Position numbers and translations under genes: made by a program | Part shown: positions 1,720-40,128 of the stretch, piece after piece | Position numbering within the stretch: position 1 is the stretch's first letter | Layout: each line of letters opens with the position of its first letter | Source: a virus | Strand: one strand, 5' to 3' | Virus record (IMG/VR): IMGVR_UViG_3300044837_000085 | Span: 40,615-104,614 of that record | Length of the DNA stretch: 64,000 nucleotides | The notes under the pieces: model-generated | Told to the model about the DNA's origin: nothing | The model's input: only the letters and a program-made list of their open reading frames with translations | Database searches by the model: none

Positions 1720-1977
1720 ATGGGTTCGCCAAAAATGGTCGATATTCCGGGCATTCCGGAATACTTCATGACGGAAGTTGGAAGGACGGAAGGTGCGGGC
1801 GGCGACTGCGTCAGGATTTACAACTGTGTCGAGCGTGGCGGATTTTTGATCCCGCAATGCACAGTGATAATTCCGGCGAGAAGCCTGATCGTTGCGTCGC
1901 GCGTCGTTTCCGAGGCGGCGCAGAAGGTGTTCGCAATCGAGCATGCGGAAAAACGGCAACCGATCCGCCATCACTGA
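1720..1977 (+). CDS. Conserved hypothetical protein, 85 aa
   Basis: Starts at ATG 1720 after a GGGGGTG ribosome-binding site. Begins MGSPKMVDIPGIPEYFMTEV and contains a beta-rich central stretch (RIYNCVERGG, then TVIIPARSL). No signal peptide or membrane segment. Its last bases overlap the end of the convergent regulator gene at 1971. The composition and location next to the immunity region suggest a phage accessory or regulatory role, but I do not recognise the family. Confidence 0.6.
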   Translation: MGSPKMVDIPGIPEYFMTEVGRTEGAGGDCVRIYNCVERGGFLIPQCTVIIPARSLIVASRVVSEAAQKVFAIEHAEKRQPIRHH

Positions 1978-2220: not shown

Positions 2221-2249
2221 TGGTAACCGCTCCGGTCACGATCCGTCAA
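2221..2249 (-). promoter_or_regulatory. Promoter of the minus-strand regulator with operator O1
   Basis: On the minus strand: TTGACG (2249-2244), 17-base spacer, TTACCA (2226-2221). Operator O1 (2223-2239, plus strand GTAACCGCTCCGGTCAC) sits between and over these boxes, so repressor binding would block polymerase. It is nearly the same sequence as the early promoter at 2725-2753. Seven bases separate the -10 from the ATG. Confidence 0.6.
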
Positions 2250-2257
2250 GAGGGAAA

Positions 2258-2316
2258 GTGACCATTCCGGACACTTTTTTTGTGGGTGGATCGGCTACAG
2301 TAACCGGCATGGTTAC
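2258..2316 (+). promoter_or_regulatory. Operators O2 and O3 and putative promoter of the plus-strand regulator
   Basis: O2 is GTGACCATTCCGGACAC (2258-2274) and O3 is GTAACCGGCATGGTTAC (2300-2316), a perfect 6-bp-arm dyad covering the start codon at 2309. A TACAGT box at 2296-2301 lies 7 bases before that ATG, so a leaderless transcript is possible; no good -35 is seen. O3 occupancy would block both the start of transcription and the start codon region. Confidence 0.5.
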
Positions 2317-2632
2317 CCGTTCTAAGCCTCAGATCGTCTATCCTCGCCTATGGCGGAAGTTCATGGGCGTTAAGCCAGGACTGCTTGCCGCGGCCCTAAA
2401 GATAGATGAAAAGTCCTATTTCAGGCTTGAGCGAGAGACGTGGCGGATCGAGCTGCCGGAACTCGCGATTCTCGCCAAGGTCATTGGCATAAGGATAGAG
2501 CAGCTATTCTGGCCGCCGCCGAAGCCTGGGGAAAAGCCGGTTGTTAGCTTGGACGAACTAGCCAAGGAGGCCACCCCGGAGAAGCGGGCCGCGATAGTGG
2601 GTGCCGTCAGGGGCATTTTGGGTAGTAGCTAG
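2309..2632 (+). CDS. XRE-like regulator, 107 aa (divergent partner)
   Basis: Start ATG 2309 (MVTRSKPQIVYPRLW). Residues about 20-65 form an XRE-type helix-turn-helix: GLLAAALKIDEKSYFRLERE followed by ELAILAKVIGI. The C-terminus (EKRAAIVGAVRGIL) is helical. An upstream start at 2258 would run through operator O2 and is disfavoured. Together with the divergent regulator at 1971 it forms a CI/Cro-style switch; which one maintains lysogeny cannot be told from sequence. Followed by an intrinsic terminator. Confidence 0.8.
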   Translation: MVTRSKPQIVYPRLWRKFMGVKPGLLAAALKIDEKSYFRLERETWRIELPELAILAKVIGIRIEQLFWPPPKPGEKPVVSLDELAKEATPEKRAAIVGAVRGILGSS

Positions 2633-2660
2633 GGCCAGTGTCCAATTCGAATCGCGAAAA

Positions 2661-2682
2661 GCCCGCCTTTTGGCGGGTTTTT
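2661..2682 (+). terminator. Rho-independent terminator
   Basis: Stem CCCGCC (2662-2667), loop TTTT, GGCGGG (2672-2677), then TTTTT. It ends the regulator transcript before the early promoter. Confidence 0.85.
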
Positions 2683-2699
2683 ATTGCGTCCAAAAATAA

Positions 2700-2753
2700 G
2701 TAGCCGCTCCGGTCACTTTTGCTATTGACGAATGGTGACCAACGCGGTTACCT
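2700..2753 (+). promoter_or_regulatory. Early-operon promoter with operators O4 and O5
   Basis: TTGACG (2725-2730), 17-base spacer, TTACCT (2748-2753). O5 (GTGACCAACGCGGTTAC, 2735-2751) fills the spacer, and O4 (GTAGCCGCTCCGGTCAC, 2700-2716) lies just upstream. The arrangement is that of a repressor-controlled early promoter for the operon starting at 2801, with a leader of roughly 40 bases. Confidence 0.65.
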
Positions 2754-2800
2754 TCTCCCCACGCTCGGCAAATCCCCGCTGAGTGGTCTGGGAGTGGCAG

Positions 2801-5764: not shown

Positions 5765-6073
5765 ATGATTAACCACCCTAACCGCAGCAAGCAAAATGGA
5801 GAACGCGCCGTTATCGTCACGACCGCGCACCGAGGCGTGTTCTTCGGCTACGCCGAAGATACGGACGGCGACGTTATCAAGCTGCGCGGAGCCAGGAATT
5901 GCGTCTACTGGTCAACCGGCGTCCGTGGTTTCATGGGTCTTGCCGCCACTGGACCGGACAAACAATCGAAAGTTGGTCCCGCCGCTGACATCGAAGTGCG
6001 CCAAATCACTAGCGTGATCGAGTGCACTCCGGGTGCCGTTAAGGCTTGGGAGGCTGCGCCATGGAGCCGGTAA
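5765..6073 (+). CDS. Conserved phage protein (DUF6948-like), 102 aa
   Basis: Start ATG 5765 with GGAGAAGAG upstream; an earlier TTG at 5717 lacks this site. Beta-rich core: RAVIVTTAHRGVFFGYAEDT, IKLRGARNCVYWS and EVRQITSVIECTPGAVKAWE. I recall this pattern in phage proteins annotated DUF6948; the name is tentative. Its 3' end overlaps the next gene by 13 bases. Function unknown. Confidence 0.65.
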   Translation: MINHPNRSKQNGERAVIVTTAHRGVFFGYAEDTDGDVIKLRGARNCVYWSTGVRGFMGLAATGPDKQSKVGPAADIEVRQITSVIECTPGAVKAWEAAPWSR

Positions 6074-6732
6074 TTCTTAGAGGCGAACCGGCGAAGCTGG
6101 CGAGCCTTTACGGCTCCGGCTCCGGCTCCGGCTACGGCTCCGGCGACGGCGACGGCTCCGGCTCCGGCTCCGGCTCCGGCTACGGCTACGGCTACGGCTC
6201 CGGCTCCGGCTCCGGCTACGGCTACGGCTACGGCTACGGCTCCGGCGACGGCGACGGCTACGGCTCCGGCTCCGGCGACGGCTCCGGCTCCGGCTCCGGC
6301 TACGGCTACGGCTCCGGCTCCGGCTCCGGCTACGGCTCCGGCTACGGCTACGGCTCCGGCTCCGGCTACGGCTCCGGCTCCAAAGACTATTGGCAAGCCA
6401 CTATTCTTAACTTCGCGGCTAAATGGCCAGAAGCCCAGCGCGCAAGGCTAACCGACGCGAAGTTAAGCGGAGCAACGATCGCCTTTTGGCGATCGAGCGA
6501 CAAGGGTCTCCCGTCAAACGGCGGCGGGAAGATCGAGCCCGCTGCGCCCGGCGTGATCCATACCGCACCAGGGCCACTGCAAACCTGCCACAGCGGTACG
6601 CTGCACGCGACGCTGATCCCACCGAAATGGGAGGGGGCGCGCTGGTGGATCGTCGCGCTTCATGGCGAAGTCGTCGGTGATGAAGAAAAGTATGGCTGCC
6701 TGAAGCGTGAAATCTTGGGCGAGGCGACATGA
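6061..6732 (+). CDS. Gly-X repeat protein with C-terminal DUF7666-like domain, 223 aa
   Basis: Start ATG 6061 with GGGAGG upstream. Residues 1-17 (MEPVILRGEPAKLASLY) precede 45 Gly-X dipeptides (X = Ser, Tyr or Asp; residues 18-107). A globular C-terminus contains GTLHATLIPPKW, RWWIVALHGEV and LKREILGE. The C-terminal part resembles small phage domains around a W-x-x-V-x-L-x-G-E-V core (tentatively DUF7666). The repeat probably forms a flexible or aggregating linker and can change length by replication slippage. Stop overlaps the next possible start. Function unknown. Confidence 0.7.
   Translation: MEPVILRGEPAKLASLYGSGSGSGYGSGDGDGSGSGSGSGYGYGYGSGSGSGYGYGYGYGSGDGDGYGSGSGDGSGSGSGYGYGSGSGSGYGSGYGYGSGSGYGSGSKDYWQATILNFAAKWPEAQRARLTDAKLSGATIAFWRSSDKGLPSNGGGKIEPAAPGVIHTAPGPLQTCHSGTLHATLIPPKWEGARWWIVALHGEVVGDEEKYGCLKREILGEAT
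6112..6381. repeat. Hexanucleotide microsatellite, 45 units
   Basis: Exactly 270 bases of GGCTCC, GGCTAC and GGCGAC units in mixed order. Unit length is a multiple of three, so unit gain or loss keeps the coding frame. No stop codon occurs in the antisense frames either. Confidence 0.95.
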
Positions 6733-8513: not shown

Positions 8514-9425
8514 TCAGCACCCCTCAATCGCCGTTCCGAAAATGTCATCGTTGAAGCGATTATTATACCTGAATTGGAACTCTGCAACGTAAAGTGGCAA
8601 ATACTTGGCGCTGACTTTGTGAAACGAACCAACGATACCGCGCTTGAAGATCGACCAGAAGCCCTCAATCGTTTGAGTATGCACCGCGCCGACAACGTAC
8701 TGCCCCTTGGCATGATCGACGGTCGCGTGAGGAAATTTCACGCCAAGGTGCTTGTAGCCCGCCCAACTATCGGTGCAGAGCAAACTAACCTTATCCGAGA
8801 CGGCTTCGTTCACGAACGCTTCCAACGTGGTGGCGCGGACGTTCTCGATCACGCGGGCGATGATGCTACCCTTGCGGCGCACTGCACCAGCAACAATCTC
8901 TTTCCCAACACCTCCGGTCCCGAGACCCTTTCCGCGCTTGTCCTTGTGCTTGTTCTTGGCGAGACCGCCGATCAGGGTTTCGTCAACTTCGACAATGCCG
9001 CCCAGCTTGGTTTCGGGTTCGATCAGAGCCGCGCGGATTTTGTGACACATGGAATGCGCGGTTTCGTAAGAGCCGAACCCCATGTGGCGTTGAACTTGGA
9101 GCGCGCTGATACCCTTTTTGCTGGTGAGCATGAGATGCACCACCTTGAACCACTGGCGAAGCGGCTTGTTGGTGTTCTCGAAAATGGTGCCCGCGATATG
9201 CGAGAAGCGATAACCGCCGCCCTTGACCGTCTCACACTCGTAGCACTGCCATTTAAGGCTCATCGTTTTGACGGGGAAAACGTTGACGTTGCCGCAACGG
9301 GGGCAGTTAACCCCATCGGGCCAGCGGCGCTTAACCAGATACTCACCGCAAGCCTGTTCATCGGGGAACATGGCTTCAAACTGGCCTTCGGTAAGCTGGT
9401 GAACTGGCTTAGGTCTGCGGGCCAT
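8514..9425 (-). CDS. IS1595-family transposase, 303 aa
   Basis: Start ATG 9425 after GGGGGAG; a longer frame from 9479 would begin in the inverted repeat. An N-terminal zinc ribbon (CPRCG near residue 40, CYEC further on) precedes the ISXO2-like DDE domain, with candidate acidic residues in VDETLIGG and CTDSWAGY and a C-terminal H-T-Q-T-I-E-G-F-W-S-x-F-K-R motif typical of the family. Full length compared with relatives (about 300 aa), no internal stop. Cuts and pastes the element into 8-bp staggered targets. Confidence 0.95.
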   Translation of the reverse strand: MARRPKPVHQLTEGQFEAMFPDEQACGEYLVKRRWPDGVNCPRCGNVNVFPVKTMSLKWQCYECETVKGGGYRFSHIAGTIFENTNKPLRQWFKVVHLMLTSKKGISALQVQRHMGFGSYETAHSMCHKIRAALIEPETKLGGIVEVDETLIGGLAKNKHKDKRGKGLGTGGVGKEIVAGAVRRKGSIIARVIENVRATTLEAFVNEAVSDKVSLLCTDSWAGYKHLGVKFPHATVDHAKGQYVVGAVHTQTIEGFWSIFKRGIVGSFHKVSAKYLPLYVAEFQFRYNNRFNDDIFGTAIEGC

Positions 9426-9495
9426 TTGGCTCCCCCTGTCTATAGAGGCCAATATGGCATGTAATTCTAGACCAGTCAAGTCCCGGATAATCGCC

Positions 9496-12678: not shown

Positions 12679-13003
12679 GAGTTTTTTCACAATTTGGGAG
12701 CGCGTCATCAAAATTCGCTTTTGTCCCCGGTGCCGCCTTCAGTCAGCGGAAGCCTTGGCGATTGATTGTGTCTGTGACTTTGCTGAAAAAGAACGCGCTC
12801 GTAGCTCAGCCGGATTAGAGCAGCCGCCTTCTAAGCGGCAGGTCGCAGGTTCGACTCCCGCCGAGCGCACCACGAAATCAGCCCCAGCGGATGGAGCGTC
12901 TCATCTTCGCGTTGAGCGTGATCCGTCAGAAATGCCGGATTCCCCTGGGGCTGATACCCACTCTCGCGCAGTTGTGGGAAATGCGGGGAAGCCCCATGAG
13001 TGA
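12671..13003 (+). CDS. Small Cys-containing ORF that spans the tRNA gene, 110 aa
   Basis: Starts MGESFFTIWERVIKIRF at 12671 with an 8-base overlap and has CPRC plus a downstream CVC pair. It then reads in frame through the whole tRNA-Arg gene (12795-12872) and stops at 13003, overlapping the next start by 8 bases exactly like its neighbours. Either the tRNA inserted into a small gene without breaking the frame, or only the first part is meaningful. The tRNA-derived residues (RSSAGLEQPPSKRQ) carry no protein signal of their own. Confidence 0.4.
   Translation: MGESFFTIWERVIKIRFCPRCRLQSAEALAIDCVCDFAEKERARSSAGLEQPPSKRQVAGSTPAERTTKSAPADGASHLRVERDPSEMPDSPGADTHSRAVVGNAGKPHE
12795..12872 (+). tRNA. 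tRNA-Arg (UCU anticodon)
   Basis: Cloverleaf with acceptor GCGCTCG (12795-12801) pairing CGAGCGC (12862-12868), D arm, anticodon stem GCCGC/GCGGC with loop CTTCTAA (anticodon TCT), and encoded CCA at 12870-12872. The T stem GCAGG/CCCGC has one A-C mismatch. It reads AGA, a rare codon in GC-rich alphaproteobacteria. It lies about 1.1 kb upstream of the integrase gene. Confidence 0.93.
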
Positions 13004-13229: not shown

Positions 13230-13270
13230 GCCCTGATCGCCGCATGACGCTAAAGCAGGCCGCCGAATGA
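13226..13270 (+). CDS. 14-residue linking reading frame
   Basis: ATG 13226 overlaps the Lar-like stop, and its TGA at 13268 overlaps the next ATG (13267). The peptide (MSPDRRMTLKQAAE) is probably just a coupling device that keeps ribosomes moving into the next gene. Low confidence as a functional product. Confidence 0.25.
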   Translation: MSPDRRMTLKQAAE

Positions 13271-13830
13271 GCCGCGCCGTCACTTTCACGCAGGCCCAGG
13301 TGCGCCGCGCCGTCAAGGCTGCGGAGAGCGCCGGGCTGCGCGTGCAGTCGATCACCATCGAACCCGATGGGACGGTGAATGCAGACGGTCCACTCCTGCA
13401 CCGGCCTGATCGATTCTTTGAATTAGACAGGGCGGCCGCCTATTGCCGTAGTCGGCCAGATCAATTCAAGGCCATGATCAAGGTGGGTATATTTCCGCAG
13501 CACGGGCCAAAAAAGCTATGGGACCGTAAGCTGCTCGATACTTCACTTAAATCCGCAACGCCTGAGGTCAGGCCGGGCGGTGGCCGAGTTTACTTTCTAG
13601 CCGTTGATAAGTTCATCAAGATCGGGTTTTCCGCTGGTGGCACCCTGGGACGGGTTGCTCAGATGCAAACCGGGTCGCCATTTGAAATTGTTTTAATCGC
13701 GGATGTGCCCGGTACCGAACAAGCCGAGCAAGCCCTGCACGATAAATTCAAATTCCTGCATGAGCGCGGCGAATGGTTCAGGCGAGACGCCGGACTGTTG
13801 GCTTACATCGACTGGTTGCAAGGCAAATGA
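13267..13830 (+). CDS. T5orf172/MUG113-domain protein (GIY-YIG-like), 187 aa
   Basis: ATGA overlap at 13267. Residues 1-45 form an N-terminal module (FTQAQVRRAVKAAESAG, then VQSITIEPDGTV) also found in the next gene. Residues about 110-180 have the T5orf172/MUG113 signature: VYFLAVDKFIKIGFS, QMQTGSPFEIVLI, E-Q-A-L-H and GEWFRRDA. The domain is a GIY-YIG nuclease relative found in phages; the catalytic status is not clear from sequence. Its place directly before the integrase suggests a role in integration, excision or DNA processing. Confidence 0.75.
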   Translation: MSRAVTFTQAQVRRAVKAAESAGLRVQSITIEPDGTVNADGPLLHRPDRFFELDRAAAYCRSRPDQFKAMIKVGIFPQHGPKKLWDRKLLDTSLKSATPEVRPGGGRVYFLAVDKFIKIGFSAGGTLGRVAQMQTGSPFEIVLIADVPGTEQAEQALHDKFKFLHERGEWFRRDAGLLAYIDWLQGK

Positions 13831-14045
13831 CCCGCACCATCCCCTTCACCGCAGCGTCGCTTGCCAGAGCCATCAAAGGCGTTGAGCTGGCGGGCCGGTT
13901 TGTCGTCGGCGTCAAGCCTGACGGCACCCTGATCGTGGGGGATAAGCCCGTCGAAACCACTTCCTTAGTTCCGGCAGTTGAGCAACCCTCACCCCGAAAA
14001 TTCGGGGAGAAACTAGGTGGTCAAGGTGCATCTGGCAGGGCTTAA
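13827..14045 (+). CDS. Small partner of the integrase, 72 aa
   Basis: ATGA overlap at 13827. FTAASLARAIKGVELAG, then VVGVKPDGTLIVGD match the N-terminal module of the 13267 protein, so the module has been duplicated. The gene overlaps the integrase by 29 bases and covers the hairpin that hides the integrase ribosome-binding site. A role as an excisionase-like or integrase-regulating protein is a guess from position. Confidence 0.65.
   Translation: MTRTIPFTAASLARAIKGVELAGRFVVGVKPDGTLIVGDKPVETTSLVPAVEQPSPRKFGEKLGGQGASGRA
13992..14010 (+). promoter_or_regulatory. Hairpin sequestering the integrase ribosome-binding site
   Basis: CCCCGAA (13992-13998), AA, TTCGGGG (14001-14007), immediately followed by GAGA. 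The Shine-Dalgarno GGGGAGA for the GTG at 14017 overlaps the 3' arm. Ribosomes translating the upstream frame would open it, giving coupling. Confidence 0.5.
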
Positions 14046-15159
14046 AATCGTCCGCTCCAAGGGCAAATATTACGTCTATGTCCGGGCGACTGGAAAGGCG
14101 TTGCTGCGCGGGTTCGATGGCGACGAGGCGGCCCTACGCAAGCGCCTAGCGCTACCTGACATGATCGGCGCCTACAATGCCCCACGCAAGCGCGAGACGT
14201 ATCCGGAGAAGACGCTAGGCTGGCTAGTGGCATGGTTCACCGATTCCGAGAAGTGCGACGAGTTCAAGAACTTGAGCGCGAGCAGCCAGGATCAGTACGG
14301 CGATGGCCTTCGATATCTTGAACCCGAATTTGACTTCCCCCTTGCCGACCTGACCGCAGCCGGCGTCTATGCAGTCCGCGACCGTTGCATCAAGGATAAG
14401 TGGCCGGTCTTTGCTGATAAGATGGTGACGGCGCTCTCGACCATGTTCAATCTCGCGGTGCAGCGTGGCTGGATGCCGACCAATCCAGCGCTGGGCATCA
14501 GGCGGGCCTACAAGTCAGACCCGAACGCCAACCGGGAATGGCGCCCTGAGGAATGGCAAACCGTAAAAGAGCGCGCGCCCCTCGCGTTGCTAATCCCGTA
14601 CATGCTGGCACGGCACGTCGGATATCGCAGTCAAAGCGTCGTCGCCGTGGCGTGGCCGAACTACCAGCCAGACCCCCGGTTCGGCATGTGCTTCCGGATG
14701 CGCCACAAGAAGAACGCCGAGGAGCATTGGCTGCCGGCGTCGCCAGAGATTCAGATGTTCCTCGCGTCGCTCAAGGTCCGCACGCCGGATGGGCCGATCG
14801 CGCTGAAGCGCAACGGTAAGCCTTGGGACAGCGAGGAGCAGCTACAGAAGCGCTCCAGCAACTTTCTGACCGGGCTGGCGCGCAAGGGACTGGTTGGGCC
14901 GGGGCTGACCGAGCACGGCCTGCGGGCAACGTTCGCGGCCGAGATCAAGCGCCTGACCGGCGCCAATGACGACCAGGTGGCTGCCGCCCTCGGGGACCGC
15001 GACGTTCGCATGGGCGCGCATTACACGCGCCACGTTAAGCAGGAGAACAAAATCCTTTTCCTGTGGGCACAGCGAACGAGAACAGAACGAGATTTGGAAA
15101 ACCGGAGCACTCAGGTTTTCCAGCAAGGCGAAAATGATGGTAATATCAGCGGCTTATAG
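14017..15159 (+). CDS. int: Tyrosine-recombinase integrase, 380 aa
   Basis: GTG start at 14017. The N-terminal arm-binding region is about residues 1-60 and the SAM-like core-binding domain about 65-165. The catalytic domain has candidate residues Arg204 (VGYRSQS), a Lys near 231, His300-x-x-Arg303 (EHGLRATF) and Tyr336 (GAHYTRHV). Length is normal for phage integrases. It catalyses site-specific integration and excision. Expression may be coupled to the upstream overlapping gene through the hairpin at 13992. Direct repeats just downstream may be its arm sites. Confidence 0.92.
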   Translation: MVKVHLAGLKIVRSKGKYYVYVRATGKALLRGFDGDEAALRKRLALPDMIGAYNAPRKRETYPEKTLGWLVAWFTDSEKCDEFKNLSASSQDQYGDGLRYLEPEFDFPLADLTAAGVYAVRDRCIKDKWPVFADKMVTALSTMFNLAVQRGWMPTNPALGIRRAYKSDPNANREWRPEEWQTVKERAPLALLIPYMLARHVGYRSQSVVAVAWPNYQPDPRFGMCFRMRHKKNAEEHWLPASPEIQMFLASLKVRTPDGPIALKRNGKPWDSEEQLQKRSSNFLTGLARKGLVGPGLTEHGLRATFAAEIKRLTGANDDQVAAALGDRDVRMGAHYTRHVKQENKILFLWAQRTRTERDLENRSTQVFQQGENDGNISGL

Positions 15160-17186: not shown

Positions 17187-17528
17187 GTGAAACTTGATCG
17201 GCACATCAACATCGATAAGCGCGGCAAGTATGCGCTCCTGAAACTGCGGCGGCTGGACGACTGGCTGCAAAGCGGCGCTTTCGCGGAGGTGCCACAATCA
17301 ATCCAGGATGCCCTCAAGACCCTGGAGGGCGCGGGTATGGTCGATTATGGGACCTCCGGCACGGAATCCGAGTTCTTCGTGATGAGGCTCAAGGACAAGT
17401 ACGCCGCCAGTGGCCTCTACGGTTACGCCAATGCGGCGTATATCGACGATCCGGAGTATGCCGAGGAAGTTGAGGGTCTGGCGCGGCGCGCTGGACCGGC
17501 AAGCCCGTTCTGCAAAAAGCCGGACTGA
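17187..17528 (+). CDS. Hypothetical protein, 113 aa
   Basis: GTG 17187 (MKLDRHINIDKRGKYALLKL). An alpha/beta protein, probably with a winged-helix-like first half (QDALKTLEGAGMVDYGT). The middle reads VMRLKDKYAASGLYGYANA. Possibly related to phage proteins that carry an N-terminal helix-turn-helix; not assigned. Confidence 0.65.
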   Translation: MKLDRHINIDKRGKYALLKLRRLDDWLQSGAFAEVPQSIQDALKTLEGAGMVDYGTSGTESEFFVMRLKDKYAASGLYGYANAAYIDDPEYAEEVEGLARRAGPASPFCKKPD

Positions 17529-31347: not shown

Positions 31348-34300
31348 TAGCCGACAGCCCTTAACTGCCGCGCCGCTGTTTGTGCAGCCTGGTACCCGGT
31401 TCTTCCGAACTCATCCTTCGCGTTGCCGCTCATCATGAACGACTGGTTTATATTGACGACCTGTGTCTTTGAATCGCCTCCTCCTCCTCCTCCTCCCATA
31501 CCTCTCTTGGAGAACTGAGGATCGACATATAAAATATTTTCACCTGAAGCCACCGGGAACGTTGCCATCATGTTGTCATTGACGCTTGGTGGGCCGGGCA
31601 CCGGGAAGCCGCCCAACGCCATACCCTGCGAGCGGAAACCAATGTGCGATGTCCGTGGGTCTTGCGTGTAGTACGGAGACAAAGCATCCGTATTTGCGCT
31701 GGTTGCGCTCGTGTTGGCCCCGGTTGCGGTTGCGAGTGACTGAATCTCAGATGTGAGCGATGAAATCGCCTGAAGACTTTCAACCGTCTGCGGTTGGGTC
31801 TGAAGCCACGCCATAAACTGCTGATCGTTCGTTATCTTCGCGGCGTTGTCGGTGGTTTGCGAATTCAATATAGAATAGAGAGTCCCGGCCGAGCTTATGT
31901 CTCCCAGGCTCTTTGCGGTCGCTATGCCCGCGCTGACCCCACCACCAGCTATAGAACTGTCAATTAGCTGGGAGTTCGGCGTAGGCGGCGCGATTGGCAA
32001 ATTATATCCGAAGGGCGCAAGCGCCAGGGCCTCGCCTGGAGAGATGCCGCCCTTGGTGGCAATCTCTCGTCGCAGCATTATACTTGTACTTGGGTCAACG
32101 TTGTCGGACGTATATTGCTTGCCCGGAGTAGTGGCGAATGGATCAAAGCTACCAAGCCCTGACGCCTTACCCGCCGCGACCTGTTGCGAGTTATATGAAG
32201 CGGTGGACTGATCGATTTGATTCTGAGTCTGCAATACCTGGAGCAGGCTGGCCTGGAGCGTATTCGCCGCAATAATGTTGGCCTGCATCGCAGTCGCGCC
32301 GTTCTGGATCGCGTCACGGTAGGCAATGGAGGATGCGACGACGCCCTCCATACCCGTTCCCTGCGCCTGTATCTTGTCGAGATTGTCCTGTGAGGACTGG
32401 ACAAGCTTTTGGGCGCTCGCAACAGCTTTTGCTTTAGAGTCGGCGTACTGAGCAGCGGCAGCCGCCCCCGCCGTTTCCGCCGAGACGCCATCGTGGATTA
32501 GCTGGTTATAGGTGGCCTCATACTGCGCCTTCATCTGTGTCGCAGTTGTCCAGGCTTGAGACACGGCTAGATTGTTTTGTAGAGACCATGTCTGAGCCTG
32601 CGCGGCGGAATTAGCTGCGGCTTGCGCTGCAGCCAGATTGGCGGCGGACAGGAACGCGGCCTCGGTCGACGTCTTCCCGCGGTCCATTGCATTGGCGTAA
32701 TCGGCGGCTTCTTGCGCTGCCATCCTAGCTGCACCGCCGACCGCCTGAATAACCGGAAGTTGGTTTCGTGACGCCTGCAAGGAGAGCGCTGTTGATTGTC
32801 CGACCTCGCCCCACGACTTGCTGATCTCGGCAACAGCCTGATTGTAGCGCTTAGATTCGCTTTCGGCCTCTTGGGTTTTGGCGATCAGATTCTGTTGGGC
32901 CGTAATCGCGGCGTCATTATTCGGACCACCTGCCCCTGCATCCCTAGCGGCCTTGAGTTGATTAAGCCTGATCTCCATTTGCTTGAGCTGTTCAATCTCT
33001 GGGATCAGGGCATTAGTACCTAACCTGGCCTTCTCAGCGATGTCATCGAATACAGCCGAAACTTTCCCATCAACAACCTTCTGTTGCCGGGCATACAGGT
33101 CTTCGTATTTTCTGCTTAAATCCTCCACGCCCTTTGAGACTTCGGCCGGGGCCTCCAACCCTGCCTCGGCCCATTTAGTCGCTGTCTCTATGGCCGCATC
33201 CAGTTTATTTTTTACATTATCCAGTGAGGTTTCGAGTCCGGTCGGTTTTTGCGTTGTGCCCATAACATTCGCCAAGCCGCGCCATGCGCTTTCAGCAGCC
33301 CCCATATGTTGTGCGGAGGCTTTGAATTTTTCATTCATCCCATCAACAATGGCGTTCATTGCCGATGTCTTGTCTCCGACCGCGACGAAGCTTTCGACTA
33401 GGTCTCTGGTTCCCTGATTCACCGGCCCAAAGACCTTACCCAACTCATCCATCGCTTTTATGGGATCTTGACCGAAACCGACGAACGCCTTGATGGCGGC
33501 ATCCACACTCGTTTTGCTCTGGTTGGCAAACCCAACCACGGCATCGCTCATGTTGTGCAACTTGCTGATAACGATGTCGCCGGTTTGAGTCATATCTTCC
33601 GCGAGAGTCCTCGATTCTTTTTGTGAAAGGCCGGCGCCCGTAAACACCGAAGGAGTGTTCTTAGCCACGAATGTATTGATGTCACTGGTTGTCGTGCCTG
33701 TCCTTGCACCCGCGCCGCTGAGAGCCAGATTCGACGACACGTTCAGTCTATCCATCTGCACCGCAGCGGCGACAGCAGCAGCCCCAAGAGCGACAGTGGC
33801 GGCTATTGCGACATTTGTCGGCGTCACATACTTCATAAGAGACGTGCCAGCGCCGCTGAACGCATAGGACAGGTTTCCGGTCTCCATCGCTATCGTGCGC
33901 GTGAGCGGAATACCGGCCATGTAGGCGTCGAACATATGCCGAATGGCGGCTGTAAAAGCCATCGACTGGGTCGAGCCTAGCGCGGAAGCGAGCCCGAACC
34001 CTTCGGTGGCCCCAGCCGCTGACTTGGCAGCGTTTTGAAACTCGCTGAGTTGATTTCCCAAAAGCTTTTGCGCAGCAGCGTATTCAACCGTCGTCATCGC
34101 GCCGGACTTCAATGCAGCGCTATACGTGGCTGACTGAGCACCTAGTTTGCCCTGCTCGACCTCCAATGGATTCATCGACGCGCGCAGTTTGTTGATCGCG
34201 TCTTCCTGCGCTAGGATTGTTTGCTTGAAGACGTCGGCCGATTGCGTCGCGGACTTTGGTGCAGACCCGATATTGAAGCTACTGTTAAGATCGTCCTGAA

Positions 34301-35117
34301 AGTTCTTCCCGATCTGTATAGCTTTTTGCTGAGCGATTGTATCAAGACGATCCAGTTCGGCGCTGAACACGCTCGCAGAATCTCTTGCAGATTTGCCGAC
34401 GCCTGCAATCAGACTGCCATCCAGACTGTCCTGGAAATTCTTTCCCACCTGCACGGCTCGCTGCTGCGAGATAGTATCCAGTCGATCAAGTTCAGCAGAA
34501 AACACGCCAGCGGAATCTCTTGCAGACTTAGCCGTACCCGCAATCATGCCGGCGTCGAGAGACTCGCCGAACTGTTTACCGATTTGGGCGGCCTTTTGGT
34601 CAGCGATATCCATCATCGCAGCGAACTGAGCGGCGTATTGATTTGTATCCACCTTGCTCTGCGACGATCCGGTGATCTGGTTAAGGCTGATAGATGTCCC
34701 GCCTATCGATCCCGTAGTCGCCGACGCATTCGTCATCATATTGGATTGCTGACGGCGGAGTGATTCCGCAGCAACTGCCGCAGCCTCGAGTTTCGCCCGA
34801 TAAACGTCCAGACCCTGACCTGCCTTGTCCAGCATGGATGAGTTCTGGTCCAGCGCCCTGCCGAAGGTGGCGTAGTTCTTTTCCAGCGTCTCAAACGCGC
34901 GCGAGGCGGGATCAATCGCACGAGCCATCGCATTAAAGGCAGCCGCAACAGAAGTCTGCCGACGCGCTGATGATTCGGTCGCGTTGCCGAGATTAGTCGC
35001 CGATGCCGCTAGCACATCAAGCGCTGATGCGGTTGCCTTTGCGTCAGCACGAACCGCGTCTCCGCCCTCGGCGACTTGCCTTATCGTCTGCGTCGCGATG
35101 AGATCTCGTTCATTCAT
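31347..35117 (-). CDS. Tape measure protein, 1,256 aa
   Basis: A long, Ala/Gln/Ser-rich helical protein with coiled coils. It has a hydrophobic segment near residues 430-465 and a Gly-rich C-terminus before MSGNAKDEFGRTGYQ. Three related repeats of about 54 residues occur at about residues 170-300 (QRAVQVGKNFQDSLDG is typical), suggesting internal duplication. Length sets tail length; a 1,256-aa protein would imply a tail of very roughly 190 nm by the usual 1.5 Angstrom per residue rule. Start ATG 35117 overlaps the upstream chaperone. Confidence 0.9.
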   Translation of the reverse strand: MNERDLIATQTIRQVAEGGDAVRADAKATASALDVLAASATNLGNATESSARRQTSVAAAFNAMARAIDPASRAFETLEKNYATFGRALDQNSSMLDKAGQGLDVYRAKLEAAAVAAESLRRQQSNMMTNASATTGSIGGTSISLNQITGSSQSKVDTNQYAAQFAAMMDIADQKAAQIGKQFGESLDAGMIAGTAKSARDSAGVFSAELDRLDTISQQRAVQVGKNFQDSLDGSLIAGVGKSARDSASVFSAELDRLDTIAQQKAIQIGKNFQDDLNSSFNIGSAPKSATQSADVFKQTILAQEDAINKLRASMNPLEVEQGKLGAQSATYSAALKSGAMTTVEYAAAQKLLGNQLSEFQNAAKSAAGATEGFGLASALGSTQSMAFTAAIRHMFDAYMAGIPLTRTIAMETGNLSYAFSGAGTSLMKYVTPTNVAIAATVALGAAAVAAAVQMDRLNVSSNLALSGAGARTGTTTSDINTFVAKNTPSVFTGAGLSQKESRTLAEDMTQTGDIVISKLHNMSDAVVGFANQSKTSVDAAIKAFVGFGQDPIKAMDELGKVFGPVNQGTRDLVESFVAVGDKTSAMNAIVDGMNEKFKASAQHMGAAESAWRGLANVMGTTQKPTGLETSLDNVKNKLDAAIETATKWAEAGLEAPAEVSKGVEDLSRKYEDLYARQQKVVDGKVSAVFDDIAEKARLGTNALIPEIEQLKQMEIRLNQLKAARDAGAGGPNNDAAITAQQNLIAKTQEAESESKRYNQAVAEISKSWGEVGQSTALSLQASRNQLPVIQAVGGAARMAAQEAADYANAMDRGKTSTEAAFLSAANLAAAQAAANSAAQAQTWSLQNNLAVSQAWTTATQMKAQYEATYNQLIHDGVSAETAGAAAAAQYADSKAKAVASAQKLVQSSQDNLDKIQAQGTGMEGVVASSIAYRDAIQNGATAMQANIIAANTLQASLLQVLQTQNQIDQSTASYNSQQVAAGKASGLGSFDPFATTPGKQYTSDNVDPSTSIMLRREIATKGGISPGEALALAPFGYNLPIAPPTPNSQLIDSSIAGGGVSAGIATAKSLGDISSAGTLYSILNSQTTDNAAKITNDQQFMAWLQTQPQTVESLQAISSLTSEIQSLATATGANTSATSANTDALSPYYTQDPRTSHIGFRSQGMALGGFPVPGPPSVNDNMMATFPVASGENILYVDPQFSKRGMGGGGGGGDSKTQVVNINQSFMMSGNAKDEFGRTGYQAAQTAARQLRAVG

Positions 35118-35978
35118 GTCTTGGGAATCTCACACGCTTATTGATTGGCTGTTGTTTTCGATTTTTAGCGAGACCAGAAACGATCCGCTTCACGCCTTGG
35201 GTGTCTCCGGCCGCAGCCTGATCTGCCATCTCTTGATTGGCCGCGAGAGCTGATCTGGACTTGTTCTCGACGCGACGCATTACAGCAATGAACAAGTCGA
35301 CTTCCTCGCCGACGAGACCAAGATCATCTTCCGCATAGGACTTGATTTTAGAACGGGGAATCACGCCGTAACTCACGCTTGCCATGGTTGCGATGACCGG
35401 GCGCTCGGTCACGAGTTCATTCCATGCACTGAGATAATAAAGGGTGGTGTCATCGATATCCGGGCGATTGTAGTAAGCTTCCGGGATGTCGGTATCGCCT
35501 CTGACGTAGCGGCGATTCCAGGCTTCAAGATGAATGCCGTACTTGCCGTACCACCCTTGCGCCGCAGTCAGTTTCCCACGATTTCCTCGATCTTATCTTC
35601 GATGCCCTGCGCGACTCTTTCACAAGCAGTCTGCACTCCGGCCCGGAACCTCTCTCCCTCCAAATATTTAGCTGCGGTTTTCTTGTCGTATGGGACTGGG
35701 CCATTATCGTCCTCAATATTTTCCCAATCCAGCAATCCGGTGTTGAGCAAGATAGCTGCCGAAACGCGCACAGCTTCATCCTGATCTAGTTGCCCGTTTA
35801 CTTTCTTCTTACGAGGCACAGCATTTATCAATCGCTGTGCCATGCGGCTCCAATCCTTATTATTGGCTCCACGAACCTTCAGCCGGATATTGCCCATTTC
35901 AGGCAAGTCGCCAACCCAAGCCCCAACCTCTACCAAATTTTTCTGCTCTTCAGTCAGTTCCAGACTTTCGATCTTCAT
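35110..35978 (-). CDS. Tail assembly chaperone GT fusion, made by -1 frameshift, 289 aa
   Basis: The short chaperone (35568-35978) ends just after the heptamer GGGAAAC (minus strand). A -1 shift there enters an open frame starting GKLTAAQGWYGKYGI, which runs to 35110 without a stop and has a charged helical C-terminus ending KRVRFPRHE. A GTG at 35412 could give only the last 100 residues but lacks good coupling. The layout matches the lambda G/GT system, where the fusion helps tail-tube proteins assemble on the tape measure. Confidence 0.75.
35568..35978 (-). CDS. Tail assembly chaperone (G-like), 136 aa
   Basis: Begins MKIESLELTEEQKNLVEVG and ends IEDKIEEIVGN, with TGA at 35568. Small helical protein between tail tube and tape measure, the usual place. 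The last three codons carry the slippery heptamer used for the longer GT form. Stop lies 450 bases upstream of the tape-measure start. Confidence 0.8.
   Translation of the reverse strand: MKIESLELTEEQKNLVEVGAWVGDLPEMGNIRLKVRGANNKDWSRMAQRLINAVPRKKKVNGQLDQDEAVRVSAAILLNTGLLDWENIEDDNGPVPYDKKTAAKYLEGERFRAGVQTACERVAQGIEDKIEEIVGN
35571..35577 (-). other. Slippery heptamer for -1 programmed frameshift
   Basis: Minus strand G-GGA-AAC, a canonical X-XXY-YYZ site, read as GTG GGA AAC TGA in the zero frame. Its location one codon before the stop and the open -1 frame after it indicate regulated frameshifting. Confidence 0.75.
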
Positions 35979-35991
35979 AAACGCTCCCTAG

Positions 35992-36029
35992 AAAAACAAA
36001 AATCCGGACGGCACGAATGCGCCGCCCGG
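35992..36029 (-). terminator. Intrinsic terminator behind the tail-tube gene
   Basis: Minus strand stem CCGGGCGGCGC (36029-36019), short loop, GTGCCGTCCGG (36014-36004) with G-T pairs, then ATTTTTGTTTTT. Placed inside the late operon; it may lower expression of chaperones and tape measure relative to the abundant tube protein. Confidence 0.75.
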
Positions 36030-36042
36030 TCTCAATTCAGAT

Positions 36043-36522
36043 TTACGTTGACGCCGGATCTTCGAGGACCGCCGAGTTGATCTCGACCGAGAAATTTTTT
36101 CTCACGATATTTTCGTTATTGCCGACGTTGAGACGCTTACCCATCACCAATCCTCGGAAATACTGGATCGTGTCGCTGTATCCAGCAGGACCGTCAGGCA
36201 GGATGACCTTGAACATATAGTTGACGTTCGTTGCCTCAGCGGCAACCAACGCAGCCTGACCCGTGTCGGTTGGATCGTGGCCACAAACGATGGCCAGCGT
36301 GCCGGCGTCTCGCGCACCTTTTGACTTACGAACGCGGCCGTCGCCAAGCGCTTCGAACGTGACCTTGTTCGCTTGGTCTCCGTACTCACCGACCGACTCC
36401 ACCAGACCGATTTCAACCCATCCAGACGTCGCCTCGAACTCAGCAATCGTATCGATGGAAGAAGTTGCAGCTGCTCCGATAAACACTCGTGTACCTGACG
36501 CCGTGACTACATCACCCGCCAT
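36043..36522 (-). CDS. Major tail tube protein, 159 aa
   Basis: MAGDVVTASGTRVFIGAAA, then ESVGEYGDQANKVTFEALGDGRVRKSKGARDAG shows (in parts) the beta-sandwich signature of siphophage tail tubes: GDQANKVTFEAL and GTLAIVCGHDPTDTG. Ends EINSAVLEDPAST. Normal length; the most abundant tail protein. Followed by a terminator. Confidence 0.85.
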   Translation of the reverse strand: MAGDVVTASGTRVFIGAAATSSIDTIAEFEATSGWVEIGLVESVGEYGDQANKVTFEALGDGRVRKSKGARDAGTLAIVCGHDPTDTGQAALVAAEATNVNYMFKVILPDGPAGYSDTIQYFRGLVMGKRLNVGNNENIVRKNFSVEINSAVLEDPAST

Positions 36523-37083: not shown

Positions 37084-37902
37084 TTACGAGGCCATCCCGT
37101 AGTTCAGTTTTTTGGACACTCGAATTCGATAAGCTATCGCCGGCCGCGTAACTCCCAGATCTTCTGCGGCGGCAGTCATTGAGGGGTATGTGATGCCATC
37201 GATGATCACTGACTTGGATGGACGAAGGCGCATTTGCTCAACCTCAGACTGAGATTTCTTTGGTCGCTGGATCAGTGGTTTTAAGCAGAAATATCCTGGA
37301 TATCCTGACGCTATCCGCCGGTTTATGGTTGCCACCCCAACGCCAAGAGCATCAGCGGCTGCATGAACGCCGGGATAGCGGATTTCGTCTATAATGACGG
37401 GCCTACTTATTGCGGCCTTGGCTGAATCGCTAAGTTTGCATCCAGTGCGCCTCACTCGCATTTGCTGCACATGCTCCGGCGAAAGCTTCTTTCCTCTATG
37501 CGCAGCGCCAATCCTTGCCCTAGTTTCAGCGGTGTTCTTTCTTCCGGTTCTAATCGCCGATTGCTTGGCCCTAGTTTCAGCGGTGACAACAATTCCGGAT
37601 ACACCATCTCCGCCCAGCGTCATATTATATCCGGCACCGAACGAACCAGTTGTCGCTATCCATCTGATCTCCGCAGCAACCAACTCACTCCTGCTACTGC
37701 ACTCCTCTAAGACGGAGATTTCGAAATCTTCTTCCCCGTACTTGCATATTGCCATTTCGAGAAATCTACGCGGTCTATCACCGCGAAAAACCCGAGCAGC
37801 GCGAACGTGGTGATACCATCTTTTTGATATTCCGAGGGTAGTTATGCCGATGTAGGCCTTCTTTGAAGTTTTGCATCTTATTAAATAGACTTGGCCAATC
37901 AC
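37084..37902 (-). CDS. GIY-YIG homing-type endonuclease with DNA-binding repeats, 272 aa
   Basis: GTG 37902 with GAGGTG upstream. N-terminal GIY-YIG domain: VIGQVYLIRCKTSKKAYIGIT, then SKRWYHHVRAA and FEISVLEECSS. The middle has NUMOD-type repeats (TAETRAKQSAIRTGRK, TAETRARIGAAHRGKK). The C-terminus has two helix-turn-helix-like modules ending in YPGVHAAADALGV and YPSMTAAAEDLGV. It lies between tail genes as a free-standing mobile gene. Confidence 0.85.
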   Translation of the reverse strand: MIGQVYLIRCKTSKKAYIGITTLGISKRWYHHVRAARVFRGDRPRRFLEMAICKYGEEDFEISVLEECSSRSELVAAEIRWIATTGSFGAGYNMTLGGDGVSGIVVTAETRAKQSAIRTGRKNTAETRARIGAAHRGKKLSPEHVQQMRVRRTGCKLSDSAKAAISRPVIIDEIRYPGVHAAADALGVGVATINRRIASGYPGYFCLKPLIQRPKKSQSEVEQMRLRPSKSVIIDGITYPSMTAAAEDLGVTRPAIAYRIRVSKKLNYGMAS

Positions 37903-37910
37903 TGCACACC

Positions 37911-38576
37911 TCAAAGGATAACTATTATCGCCGGCTGACGCCTGAGCCACTCAGCCTGACCCTTGGCGCGCTTCTTCTTGCCCCAAGCAATTCCGGCAGG
38001 GCTAGCAGCCCAATTCTCGATCGCGCCGAACAGTGGCGTCTCGTATCCGAACTGGATTTTTGCGACGTTGCTGAACTTGGATGACGCCAGTTTAGCAACC
38101 ACTTGATAAACGCCATCAGGTGCCTGCGGTGAAAGCCCTCGTTCTATTTTTCGACTGTATGGGACAACGTTCGTAAATGTGATTCTTGATGCGACGGGAG
38201 GGACCGAACCTTCAGGAACGGCAACACCATCAGCAATCATAACGTGAGACTTCTGGTATCGGCCCGACTTCACCGGAGAGAACTGCTCCAGCATATCTCC
38301 TATCCACGTCAGCGCCTCAAACACCAACTCATATTCAACAAAGACGACGCCGCCCGGCTTCACCGATTCCAGTGGAGCTCCAAGGCGACCATCAACCGAA
38401 ACCGTATATGGAGGAACGCGGCCTAGAACACTTGCGTTATGTGCCTTGCCTTCTTCGATGACTTGAGCCGCGAACTCAGCAAACAACTGTGACTGAATTT
38501 CAGGAGGCAGGGCGTTCGATATAAACTTCTCGTAAGGAACGTTGATCGGCGTGAACTTGATCCGCAGCGCCATCAC
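37911..38576 (-). CDS. HK97 gp10-like head-tail/tail completion protein, 221 aa
   Basis: MMALRIKFTPINVPYEKF, then a central QFSPVKSGRYQKSHVMIAD, the S-x-V-x-S-G-x-x-x-x-S signature of gp10-like proteins. Basic C-terminus (KKKRAKGQAEWLRRQ). Overlaps the DUF115-like gene by about 77 bases, unusual in this operon. Acts as a connector between head and tail. Confidence 0.75.
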   Translation of the reverse strand: MMALRIKFTPINVPYEKFISNALPPEIQSQLFAEFAAQVIEEGKAHNASVLGRVPPYTVSVDGRLGAPLESVKPGGVVFVEYELVFEALTWIGDMLEQFSPVKSGRYQKSHVMIADGVAVPEGSVPPVASRITFTNVVPYSRKIERGLSPQAPDGVYQVVAKLASSKFSNVAKIQFGYETPLFGAIENWAASPAGIAWGKKKRAKGQAEWLRRQPAIIVIL

Positions 38577-39330
38577 GAACTCCCAGCGCCTCAGCCAAGG
38601 ACATCTTCGGGTAAGCCGTTAGGGCTGATGGCCCGACAACCACGACTTCGACACCGAGGGATTTGAACTGCTCCGCGCATCCGTCCAGCGCGACCCGCCA
38701 ACTCTTAACCCTGCCTGCATCCGGTTTCGATACGCCGCGATAATCTGAATTCCAATGAGCACCGTTCGACAGCGTCATGTCGAAGCCGACCAAGACAATC
38801 TTCCTTGCTCCGAACTGGATTGCCAGATTGATTGCCTGAAACCCTGAGTGCCCGCCGCCTGTCCTTAGACCGCAGCCCAGAACTCCGGTTTCTCCGGTCA
38901 GGATTTCGGCCCTCGCCTTCAGGCTCACTTGCCGTAGACCAAACACTCTCGCAGCCGTGGGAGACGGCGTCACCTTCAATCCCTTAAAGTCTGGAACCCC
39001 ATGGTTGGCGAGCCACCAGCCCTTGTCGAGGCCATATAGAAGCGAAGCCCAAGGCGCCAGTTTCCATGCGCCTTTGATCGCAATCGCTCTGGCGAGCCCG
39101 CGCGCTTGATCTAGCGGCGCATCCTTCGCACTCGGACCCGTCCCTATGATGACCGCAGTCTGGCCGGACCAGTTGGGCCACTCCGTCACTTCTTCGCCGG
39201 CCACCAAGGAAAGACGCGCGACCAGTAAAGCCCGCCGCCATTGAGATGGGCCGCCACGATAAGCCGCCGGTTGTGAATGCGCCAAACCCATTTCCATGGC
39301 GGCTGCAGTTGAGGCTTTGGCTTCACCCAA
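38500..39330 (-). CDS. DUF115/MptE-like protein, copy C, 276 aa
   Basis: TTG 39330 or an ATG at 39297 as start. Core: AVIIGTGPSAKDAPL (nucleotide-binding-like loop), KLAPWASLLYGLDKGWW, GGHSGFQAINLAIQFGARKIVLVGFDM and a GAHWNSD motif. The same landmarks occur in the proteins at 48365 and 50117. The Rossmann-like fold resembles DUF115/MptE-like proteins that act in flagellin glycosylation or pterin metabolism. It lies away from the other two, among head-tail connectors. Confidence 0.65.
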   Translation of the reverse strand: MGEAKASTAAAMEMGLAHSQPAAYRGGPSQWRRALLVARLSLVAGEEVTEWPNWSGQTAVIIGTGPSAKDAPLDQARGLARAIAIKGAWKLAPWASLLYGLDKGWWLANHGVPDFKGLKVTPSPTAARVFGLRQVSLKARAEILTGETGVLGCGLRTGGGHSGFQAINLAIQFGARKIVLVGFDMTLSNGAHWNSDYRGVSKPDAGRVKSWRVALDGCAEQFKSLGVEVVVVGPSALTAYPKMSLAEALGVRDGAADQVHADQRSLREVYIERPAS

Positions 39331-39721
39331 GCACCCTGAGTTCGATCCTCACCAGTTCGTCGTCGACATAGATTGGCTTGGGAACCTCGATATTCCGAGG
39401 CTTGCCTTTGACTACCGCCTTATCGTTCTTCCGCGGCACTCTTCGATCAATTCCAGGATTAACCGGCTCTGCTGCTGAAGGCGTCCAAGGCCCAGGCCAT
39501 CCCGCCGCCATGATCTCTGACGGACTCATGATGATGTTGCTGGAGTCCTGCGTGATCCCGGAAATCAATTCCTCTGCGGTAATCGGCCTAACGAACGCAC
39601 GGCACCTGACGCTGACAGGGATTAACTGTGTTCCGTACAGACGACGGATTTCGATCCACTCTCCGTCCTCAGCGAGACTCATATTGAGGTCTGCGATCTC
39701 CCGATCAGATGCAAAACTCAT
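39323..39721 (-). CDS. Head-tail joining protein, 132 aa
   Basis: ATG 39721 overlaps the upstream stop. MSFASDREIADLNMSLAEDG, then IPVSVRCRAFVRPITAEEL, a beta-rich layout typical of head-tail joining proteins. Placed between the connectors and the gp10-like protein. Function assigned by position and pattern. Confidence 0.55.
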   Translation of the reverse strand: MSFASDREIADLNMSLAEDGEWIEIRRLYGTQLIPVSVRCRAFVRPITAEELISGITQDSSNIIMSPSEIMAAGWPGPWTPSAAEPVNPGIDRRVPRKNDKAVVKGKPRNIEVPKPIYVDDELVRIELRVLG

Positions 39722-40128
39722 CGCGCGACGGCGCTACAGACCAATTGAGTTGATCCGGAATACGTCCCTACGACAACTATCTTGACACGATATCGGTCGC
39801 CAACGATGCCATCAACGGTCGTATCCGAAGCCAACGCGCCGTCAGATGGCGTCACCTGAGTTGTCTTTGGAGTCAGGGCACTGAAATTGAATACGGCATT
39901 CTCGCTTGCAACCCCGAATGCCACAGCAGCGACGTCGATAGGAGTCGTTCCATCATCCGCCGATGTTTGGACGTAAGCGACCACGGACGTTCCGTTTGCA
40001 CCATAAATAAACCGAAGGTTAATCAGAGCAGACAGACATCCTTCGAAATCATCATTCCAGTCGCCTGTGAATGTCCCTGCCGTCGTAATAGAGAATGCGC
40101 CGAGAGATTTATAGCCAGGAGACTGCAT
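39718..40128 (-). CDS. Head/tail surface protein, 136 aa
   Basis: MQSPGYKSLGAFSITTAGT followed by a beta-sandwich-like sequence with TSADDGTTPIDVAAVAF and YRVKIVVVGTYSG. It resembles small decoration or tail proteins with an Ig-like fold. Overlaps its neighbours by 1-4 bases. Role inferred. Confidence 0.55.
   Translation of the reverse strand: MQSPGYKSLGAFSITTAGTFTGDWNDDFEGCLSALINLRFIYGANGTSVVAYVQTSADDGTTPIDVAAVAFGVASENAVFNFSALTPKTTQVTPSDGALASDTTVDGIVGDRYRVKIVVVGTYSGSTQLVCSAVAR

Follow-up and report, generated by a model that had tools for sequence, protein, structure and literature searches.

The window analysed here, a 64-kb stretch that corresponds to positions 40615-104614 of a 104,614-bp IMG/VR virus contig, holds two divergently oriented genes for small regulators, P1 and P2, which are accompanied by five 17-bp dyads, promoters and a terminator hairpin (Table 1). 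Because the contig encodes structural proteins (TerL, portal, protease-capsid and tape-measure) together with an integrase (window 14017-15159; phrog_1, E=1e-23), we assign it to a temperate tailed phage, and the occurrence of relatives in an Afipia MAG and in Bradyrhizobium phage ppBjS10J-1 points to a host within the Nitrobacteraceae (Alphaproteobacteria). Elsewhere on the contig, a transposase-like ORF in the right arm (window 8514-9479, minus strand) is apparently an insertion sequence that interrupts the early region, and a low-complexity coding stretch (window 6046-6400) consists of Gly-Ser/Gly-Tyr/Gly-Asp repeats (SGYGSGDGDG...). A phage-encoded tRNA-Arg (TCT; window 12795-12872, plus strand) adjoins a gene for a T5orf172-type (GIY-YIG-like) endonuclease (13267-13830), and a DNA methylase gene (contig 32065-34806) is interrupted by a long insert that weakly matches LAGLIDADG and may be an intein or a homing element.

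Table 1. Features of the regulatory region and of the leftward arm; positions refer to the window unless given as contig positions
Feature	Position	Strand	Description
P1	1971..2213	-	80-aa XRE (HTH_3) regulator, Cro-like by position
P1 promoter (predicted lytic, leftward)	2221..2249	-	TTGACG at 2249-2244; O1 in spacer; -10 TTACCA or TACCAA
O1	2223..2239	.	17-bp operator GTAACCGCTCCGGTCAC; inside P1 promoter; 0 mismatches
O2	2258..2274	.	GTGACCATTCCGGACAC; 1 mismatch; centred 43 bp upstream of the P2 start codon (A)
-10 of P2 promoter	2296..2301	+	TACAGT; family consensus TATAGT; 7 nt before ATG
O3	2300..2316	.	GTAACCGGCATGGTTAC; 0 mismatches; contains the P2 ATG (2309-2311)
P2	2309..2632	+	107-aa XRE-type regulator, CI-like by position
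Intrinsic terminator hairpin	2657..2683	+	AAAAGCCCGCC TTTT GGCGGGTTTTT; inverted repeat after P2, before O4
O4	2700..2716	.	GTAGCCGCTCCGGTCAC; 1 mismatch
Rightward early promoter	2725..2754	+	TTGACG at 2725-2730; O5 in spacer; -10 TTACCT or TACCTT
O5	2735..2751	.	GTGACCAACGCGGTTAC; 0 mismatches; inside rightward early promoter
DNA polymerase III sliding clamp (DnaN)	contig 34979-36079		P1 arm, left of window
DnaA, full-length	contig 37700-38953		ATPase and C-terminal domain; P1 arm, left of window
CII-like gene	contig 39529-39951		leftward (P1) arm; phrog_101, E=5e-14; Phage_CP76

Operators, promoters and regulators in the window

The initial annotation had placed five dyads of the form GTRACC-N5-GGTYAC at 2223, 2258, 2300, 2700 and 2735, with one or two arm mismatches at most, and all five lie at exactly those positions with no more than a single mismatch each (Table 1). 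When up to one mismatch is allowed, the window contains six sites, namely O1-O5 and one at 17410, and a search of the whole 104,614-bp contig again returned only these. In 60 second-order Markov sequences of the same composition as the window, by comparison, the mean was 0.18 dyads per 64 kb (maximum 2), and none of the 60 had two dyads within 533 bp. Equal frequency in random sequence, which the annotation had named as evidence against the operators, is thus far from what is found (6 vs 0.18). The site at 17410, which falls inside an ORF and far from the switch, is probably due to chance.

The placement of the dyads relative to genes and promoters was also largely as proposed. O3 does cover the start codon of the rightward regulator, and its second arm is the P2 coding sequence ATG GTT AC (Met-Val-Thr). 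O1 and O5 each fill the spacer of a TTGACG promoter. Both XRE genes were said to lie between the operator groups, which holds for P2 but not for P1, whose gene is to the left of O1. The promoter form TTGACG-N17-TTACCA/T can be read at 2249-2221 on the minus strand and at 2725-2753 on the plus strand, but related loci favour a different -10 and spacer: their conserved -10 reads TAC(A/C)A(T/A/G), and most have TACCAA/TACCTT with an 18-bp spacer. A scan with the strict E. coli sigma-70 consensus called neither of these two promoters. The P1 start codon is only 6-7 nt beyond the -10 of its promoter (5-8 nt among relatives), a distance that makes a leaderless P1 mRNA likely.

The P2 promoter is of a different kind. 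A positional profile of 20 loci gives a conserved TATAGT-like -10 at positions -13 to -8 and shows that CC at -5/-4 and ATGGTTAC or ATGGCAAC are strongly conserved too; a conserved -35 is missing from the stretch between O2 and this -10, and O2 abuts the spot where one would sit. The distance from the -10 to the ATG implies that the P2 mRNA is leaderless as well. The terminator hairpin downstream of P2 was read directly as an inverted repeat and was missed by a scan with a stricter terminator consensus.

P1 matches Pfam HTH_3 (E=1.5e-8), its AlphaFold model is a confident single domain (pLDDT 84.6), and the solved folds nearest to it are single-domain HTH regulators. P2 of the window alone has no significant Pfam match, and its assignment as an HTH protein therefore comes from the family profile, which matches the XRE structure 3vk0 (E=1e-7), with HTH_3 matched in 11 of the 16 family members. 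A fold search with P2 placed 3vk0 and P22 C2 at the top, both weakly (E about 0.01-0.04), and the AlphaFold model has a helical HTH core followed by two short low-confidence C-terminal helices. A peptidase domain was sought in the P2 family and found in 0/16 members. As P2 has no cleavable C-terminal peptidase/oligomerisation domain, it falls outside the Lambda/434/P22 CI repressor family (S24/LexA-type).

Layout and operator letters in related loci

With P1 as the query, four viral loci were recovered at 59-87% identity; P2 as the sole query found no close viral relative, and alignments of P1 and P2 used as queries did retrieve viral relatives. Profile searches extended the set to 17 loci with a recognisable P1/P2 pair, a number that includes the window itself and the truncated locus L025, which has P2 and only the start of P1. 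A further group of divergent loci (L018, L040-L046, L049, L050 and L054), in which the dyads are of another kind or not clear, was excluded from the statistics, and Rhizobium phage RHph_I1_23, which has a P2-like protein, was rejected as a member, with TTCAGTCA repeats in place of the dyads. In one relative, L014, the P2 gene (5576-5914, minus strand) is frameshifted half-way relative to the others; the cause is an error in sequencing, or else the repressor is broken and the phage of clear type. The composite promoter pattern was found in 0/397 order-level genomes and the P1 profile matched 3/392 family genomes, the seed among them; sequenced hosts thus seldom show the family.

The order P1, O1, O2, O3, P2, terminator, O4, O5, with P1 transcribed leftward and both P2 and the region beyond O5 rightward, is kept in about 20 viral or prophage loci that span P1 identities down to about 40%. 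Relative to the first base of the P2 ATG, the centre of O1 is at -77 to -79 in 16/17 loci (-89 in L020), that of O2 at -43 or -44 in all loci tested, and that of O3 at -1 in relatives, with departures from this placement in L055, L066, L067 and L074. O4 and O5 are 33-36 bp apart, and 43-45 bp, or about one helical turn more, in L017 and L020; the L023 O4 is too weak and was left out of this spacing. When the operator-pair spacings are pooled, they concentrate around a phase of 0.27 on a 10.5-bp turn (R=0.87, n=39), and the 34-35-bp pairs suggest cooperative dimers bound side by side. Between the window and its nearest relative, the operators are conserved while the bases between them drift. 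P2 proteins begin with Met-Val-Thr or Met-Ala-Thr because the gene starts within O3, whose second arm encodes these residues; the choice is largely in step with operator class, and the remainder of the N-terminus is variable.

Operator letters vary between phages and agree within each phage. A GTNACC class (sometimes GTGGCC) comprises the window, L012, L017, L020, L023, L036, L060 and L062; a GTTGCC/GTTTCC class comprises L013, L014, L034 and L039; a GTATCC/GTGACN class comprises L015, L016, L025 and L028; and L037, L038 and L055 have GTTACC-like or mixed arms. The operators of ppBjS10J-1 belong to a CCTACC class and those of Acetobacter phage phiAP1 to a TTCGC class. With O3 excluded, the arm match is 0.81 within a locus and 0.69 between loci, a difference reached in 0/500 shuffles. 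The DNA alone is also sufficient to find the family: two protein-blind patterns, TTGAC-N5-GTGACC-N5-GGTTAC and TTGAC-N5-GTTTCC-N5-GGCAAC, were scanned against 2.9 million viral contigs and returned 6 and 13 stretches respectively, and 13 of these 19 adjoin a P1/P2 pair, with seven loci newly found and spacings mostly the same as in the earlier loci. The other six stretches (L061, L064, L069, L073, L076 and L077) have no such pair and look like chance.

Operator letters appear to change together with the regulators. With relatedness only partly controlled, operator distance correlates with distance in the HTH (recognition-helix) segment beyond overall protein divergence, both for P1 (partial r 0.36; 1/2000 permutations) and for P2 (partial r 0.24; 30/2000). 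When every 9-residue window was tried, the recognition-helix window ranked only 5th in P1 and 13th in P2, with equal or higher scores for other windows of the HTH; the helix is thus not singled out, and we treat its covariation with the operators as suggestive. These observations bear on two other accounts of the dyads. Short repeated dyads are generally known at replication origins and partition sites too, but an alternative role here (host regulator, replication iterons or partition) or a mere cluster by chance is exceedingly improbable given a dyad frequency far above the null, the constant distances that separate the dyads from the promoters and the start codon, and the joint change of their letters with the adjacent regulators; chance clustering as such is rejected on the shuffles and the conservation. 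It is unlikely that the dyads serve just one of the regulators while the other works through protein contact as an antirepressor in the manner of MOR of TP901-1: an HTH is present in P1 as well as in P2, and in each of them the HTH segment diverges in correlation with the operators. The divergence of the P2 HTH would suit such an arrangement, as would TP901-1 and phi13, which have small repressors and are reported to switch via a CI:Mor protein complex (PMC11149083).

Proposed roles of the two regulators

Taken together, these features identify the region with high probability as the immunity (lysis-lysogeny) switch of a temperate phage of Nitrobacteraceae type, in which P2 would be the prophage repressor, P1 a Cro-like protein, and the 17-bp dyad their shared target. 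At the control region marked by the five sites, this temperate phage, whose hosts are soil bacteria, probably decides between dormancy and killing of the host. The Cro-like role of P1 follows from the genes behind it, that is, a CII-like activator, DnaA and the sliding clamp. The CI-like role of P2 follows from its position alone between the operator groups, its own terminator hairpin, and the genes that occupy the position of lambda rexAB in five relatives (L013, L017, L023, L028 and L034), where a gene for a lipoprotein or a small membrane/secreted protein lies between the P2 stop and O4; these genes may be expressed in the lysogen and act in superinfection exclusion.

The roles could also be reversed, with P1 as prophage repressor, P2 as Cro-like protein and the rightward arm lytic. 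Such a reversal would accommodate the greater conservation of P1, which is a standard HTH_3 protein, and the presence of early-type genes on both arms, the right one of which has genes for an HNH protein and an integrase, but it is hard to reconcile with a P1 promoter that has a normal -35 and leads into the CII-like and replication arm, or with a P2 gene that is flanked on both sides by operator groups, has its own terminator and a promoter that looks activator-dependent, and is followed in some relatives by envelope-protein genes. The arrangement is the mirror image of lambda cI, and we regard the reversed assignment as improbable.

With P2 as the repressor, we infer binding, activation, order of occupancy and cooperativity at O1-O5 from the sequence, as follows. 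In the lysogen, P2 on O1/O2 and on O5/O4 would shut both the leftward early promoter (P1, CII-like, DnaA, clamp) and the rightward one, and from O2, which has the position of lambda OR2, it would probably activate its own -35-less promoter. When abundant, P2 would fill O3 and cover the transcription start and the start codon of its own leaderless mRNA, shutting itself off. In the lytic state, P1 would bind the same sites, presumably O3 first, and keep P2 off; O3 on the start codon may thus provide negative autoregulation or be the site where P1 shuts off P2. Since P2 has no peptidase domain, induction must differ from RecA-driven cleavage of CI, and inactivation could take another route, such as an antirepressor.

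A small conserved gene (window 1720-1977, plus strand) is convergent with P1, overlaps its end and has no PHROG match. Related genes occur at L008 2467-2715 (minus), L009 8234-8515 (minus) and L057 5389-5628 (plus), with overlap of the P1 stop in several loci. Transcription from the P1 promoter would run antisense to this gene and, because of the overlap, it is an assumption that P1 transcripts continue into the leftward arm, which weighs against the model.

Comparison with known switches

A close parallel is lambda (cI/cro, OR/OL). In that phage O2 is centred about 42-43 bp upstream of the repressor start and the repressor mRNA is leaderless, CI activates PRM from OR2, and rexAB follows cI. 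Both systems have divergent genes for a repressor and a Cro-like HTH protein, three 17-bp dyads between the two genes and further dyads on the far side of the repressor gene, so that operator groups flank it, and operators that overlap both early promoters and the repressor promoter. They also share the distance of O2 from the start (43 bp here), the leaderless repressor mRNA (implied here), a cro arm that carries replication genes together with one for a CII-like protein, and, in some of the present relatives, an extra gene at the rex position. Operators in pairs are about 35 bp apart here, whereas OR1 and OR2 of lambda are 24 bp apart, but helical phase is nearly equal (0.27 vs 0.29 turn). 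The differences are that the operator letters are not homologous, the repressor is 107 aa and has no cleavage/oligomerisation domain, O3 covers the start codon (the lambda counterpart is near -19), and the second group has two operators rather than three. The repressors of lambda, 434 and P22 use a C-terminal domain for dimerisation and cleavage, while the C-terminus of P2 is short and modelled with low confidence, which counts against our preferred model. The reading originally suggested, a switch of lambda-like design whose operators form a class of their own, is nevertheless the best supported: it is backed by the 3+2 layout and the promoter and start-codon overlaps in about 20 loci, by the XRE/HTH regulators, by the CII-like and replication arm, and by the envelope genes at the rex position in some relatives. 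With spacing kept and letters changed in about 20 related phages, the switch is a new branch of the lambda type and not a new kind of device; it would work like lambda, with a repressor outside the cleavable CI family.

TP901-1/phi13-type switches likewise belong to temperate phages and are reported to combine several palindromic operators with divergently oriented promoters and a repressor of the CI type (PMC11149083, PMC8516035); the operators studied here differ in their lambda-like 3+2 arrangement and in the XRE protein at the Cro position. Both ppBjS10J-1 and phiAP1 have a divergent XRE pair with three dyads between the genes and two after the P2-like gene, and differ in operator letters and in an O2-O3 spacing of 22 and 26 bp, compared with 42-43; their O4-O5 distances are 45 and 34 bp, respectively. 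In phiAP1 (L059, 4884-5357) the 3+2 set lies around PhiAP1_170/180 and O3 again contains an ATG. The records of the two phages carry no operator annotation, and the phiAP1 paper, which describes the phage as inducible by mitomycin C and goes no further than suggesting a role for its XRE proteins in controlling the switch, does not contain the word "operator" (PMC8566455). Rhizobium phage 16-3 (C repressor/immC, immX) is, by its description, another immunity region of an alphaproteobacterial temperate phage (PMC10460002). No published description of these operators or of the family was found in the openly accessible literature; the earlier claim that the switch is undescribed thus stands within limited literature and database searches, and both switch and operator family are apparently undescribed.

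Few immunity switches of phages of Alphaproteobacteria have been worked out. For one such family, the comparative data provide the operators, the promoters and both regulators, and they distinguish about four to six specificity classes, with suggestive matching to the recognition helices. We consider it somewhat more probable than the contrary that this is a widespread, uncharacterised alphaproteobacterial family in which the geometry is frozen, an operator arm forms the coding start of the repressor, and operator letters and regulators change together, giving many immunity classes, and in which the repressor is non-cleavable and induction does not depend on RecA cleavage. The loci form a natural data set on how a switch changes its specificity without being broken, a change that has to involve five sites and two proteins at once, and the absence of a cleavage domain from P2 makes the route of induction a concrete question. 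The same data would serve to predict which phages are homoimmune, and the operators and their small regulators could serve as orthogonal control parts in rhizobia.
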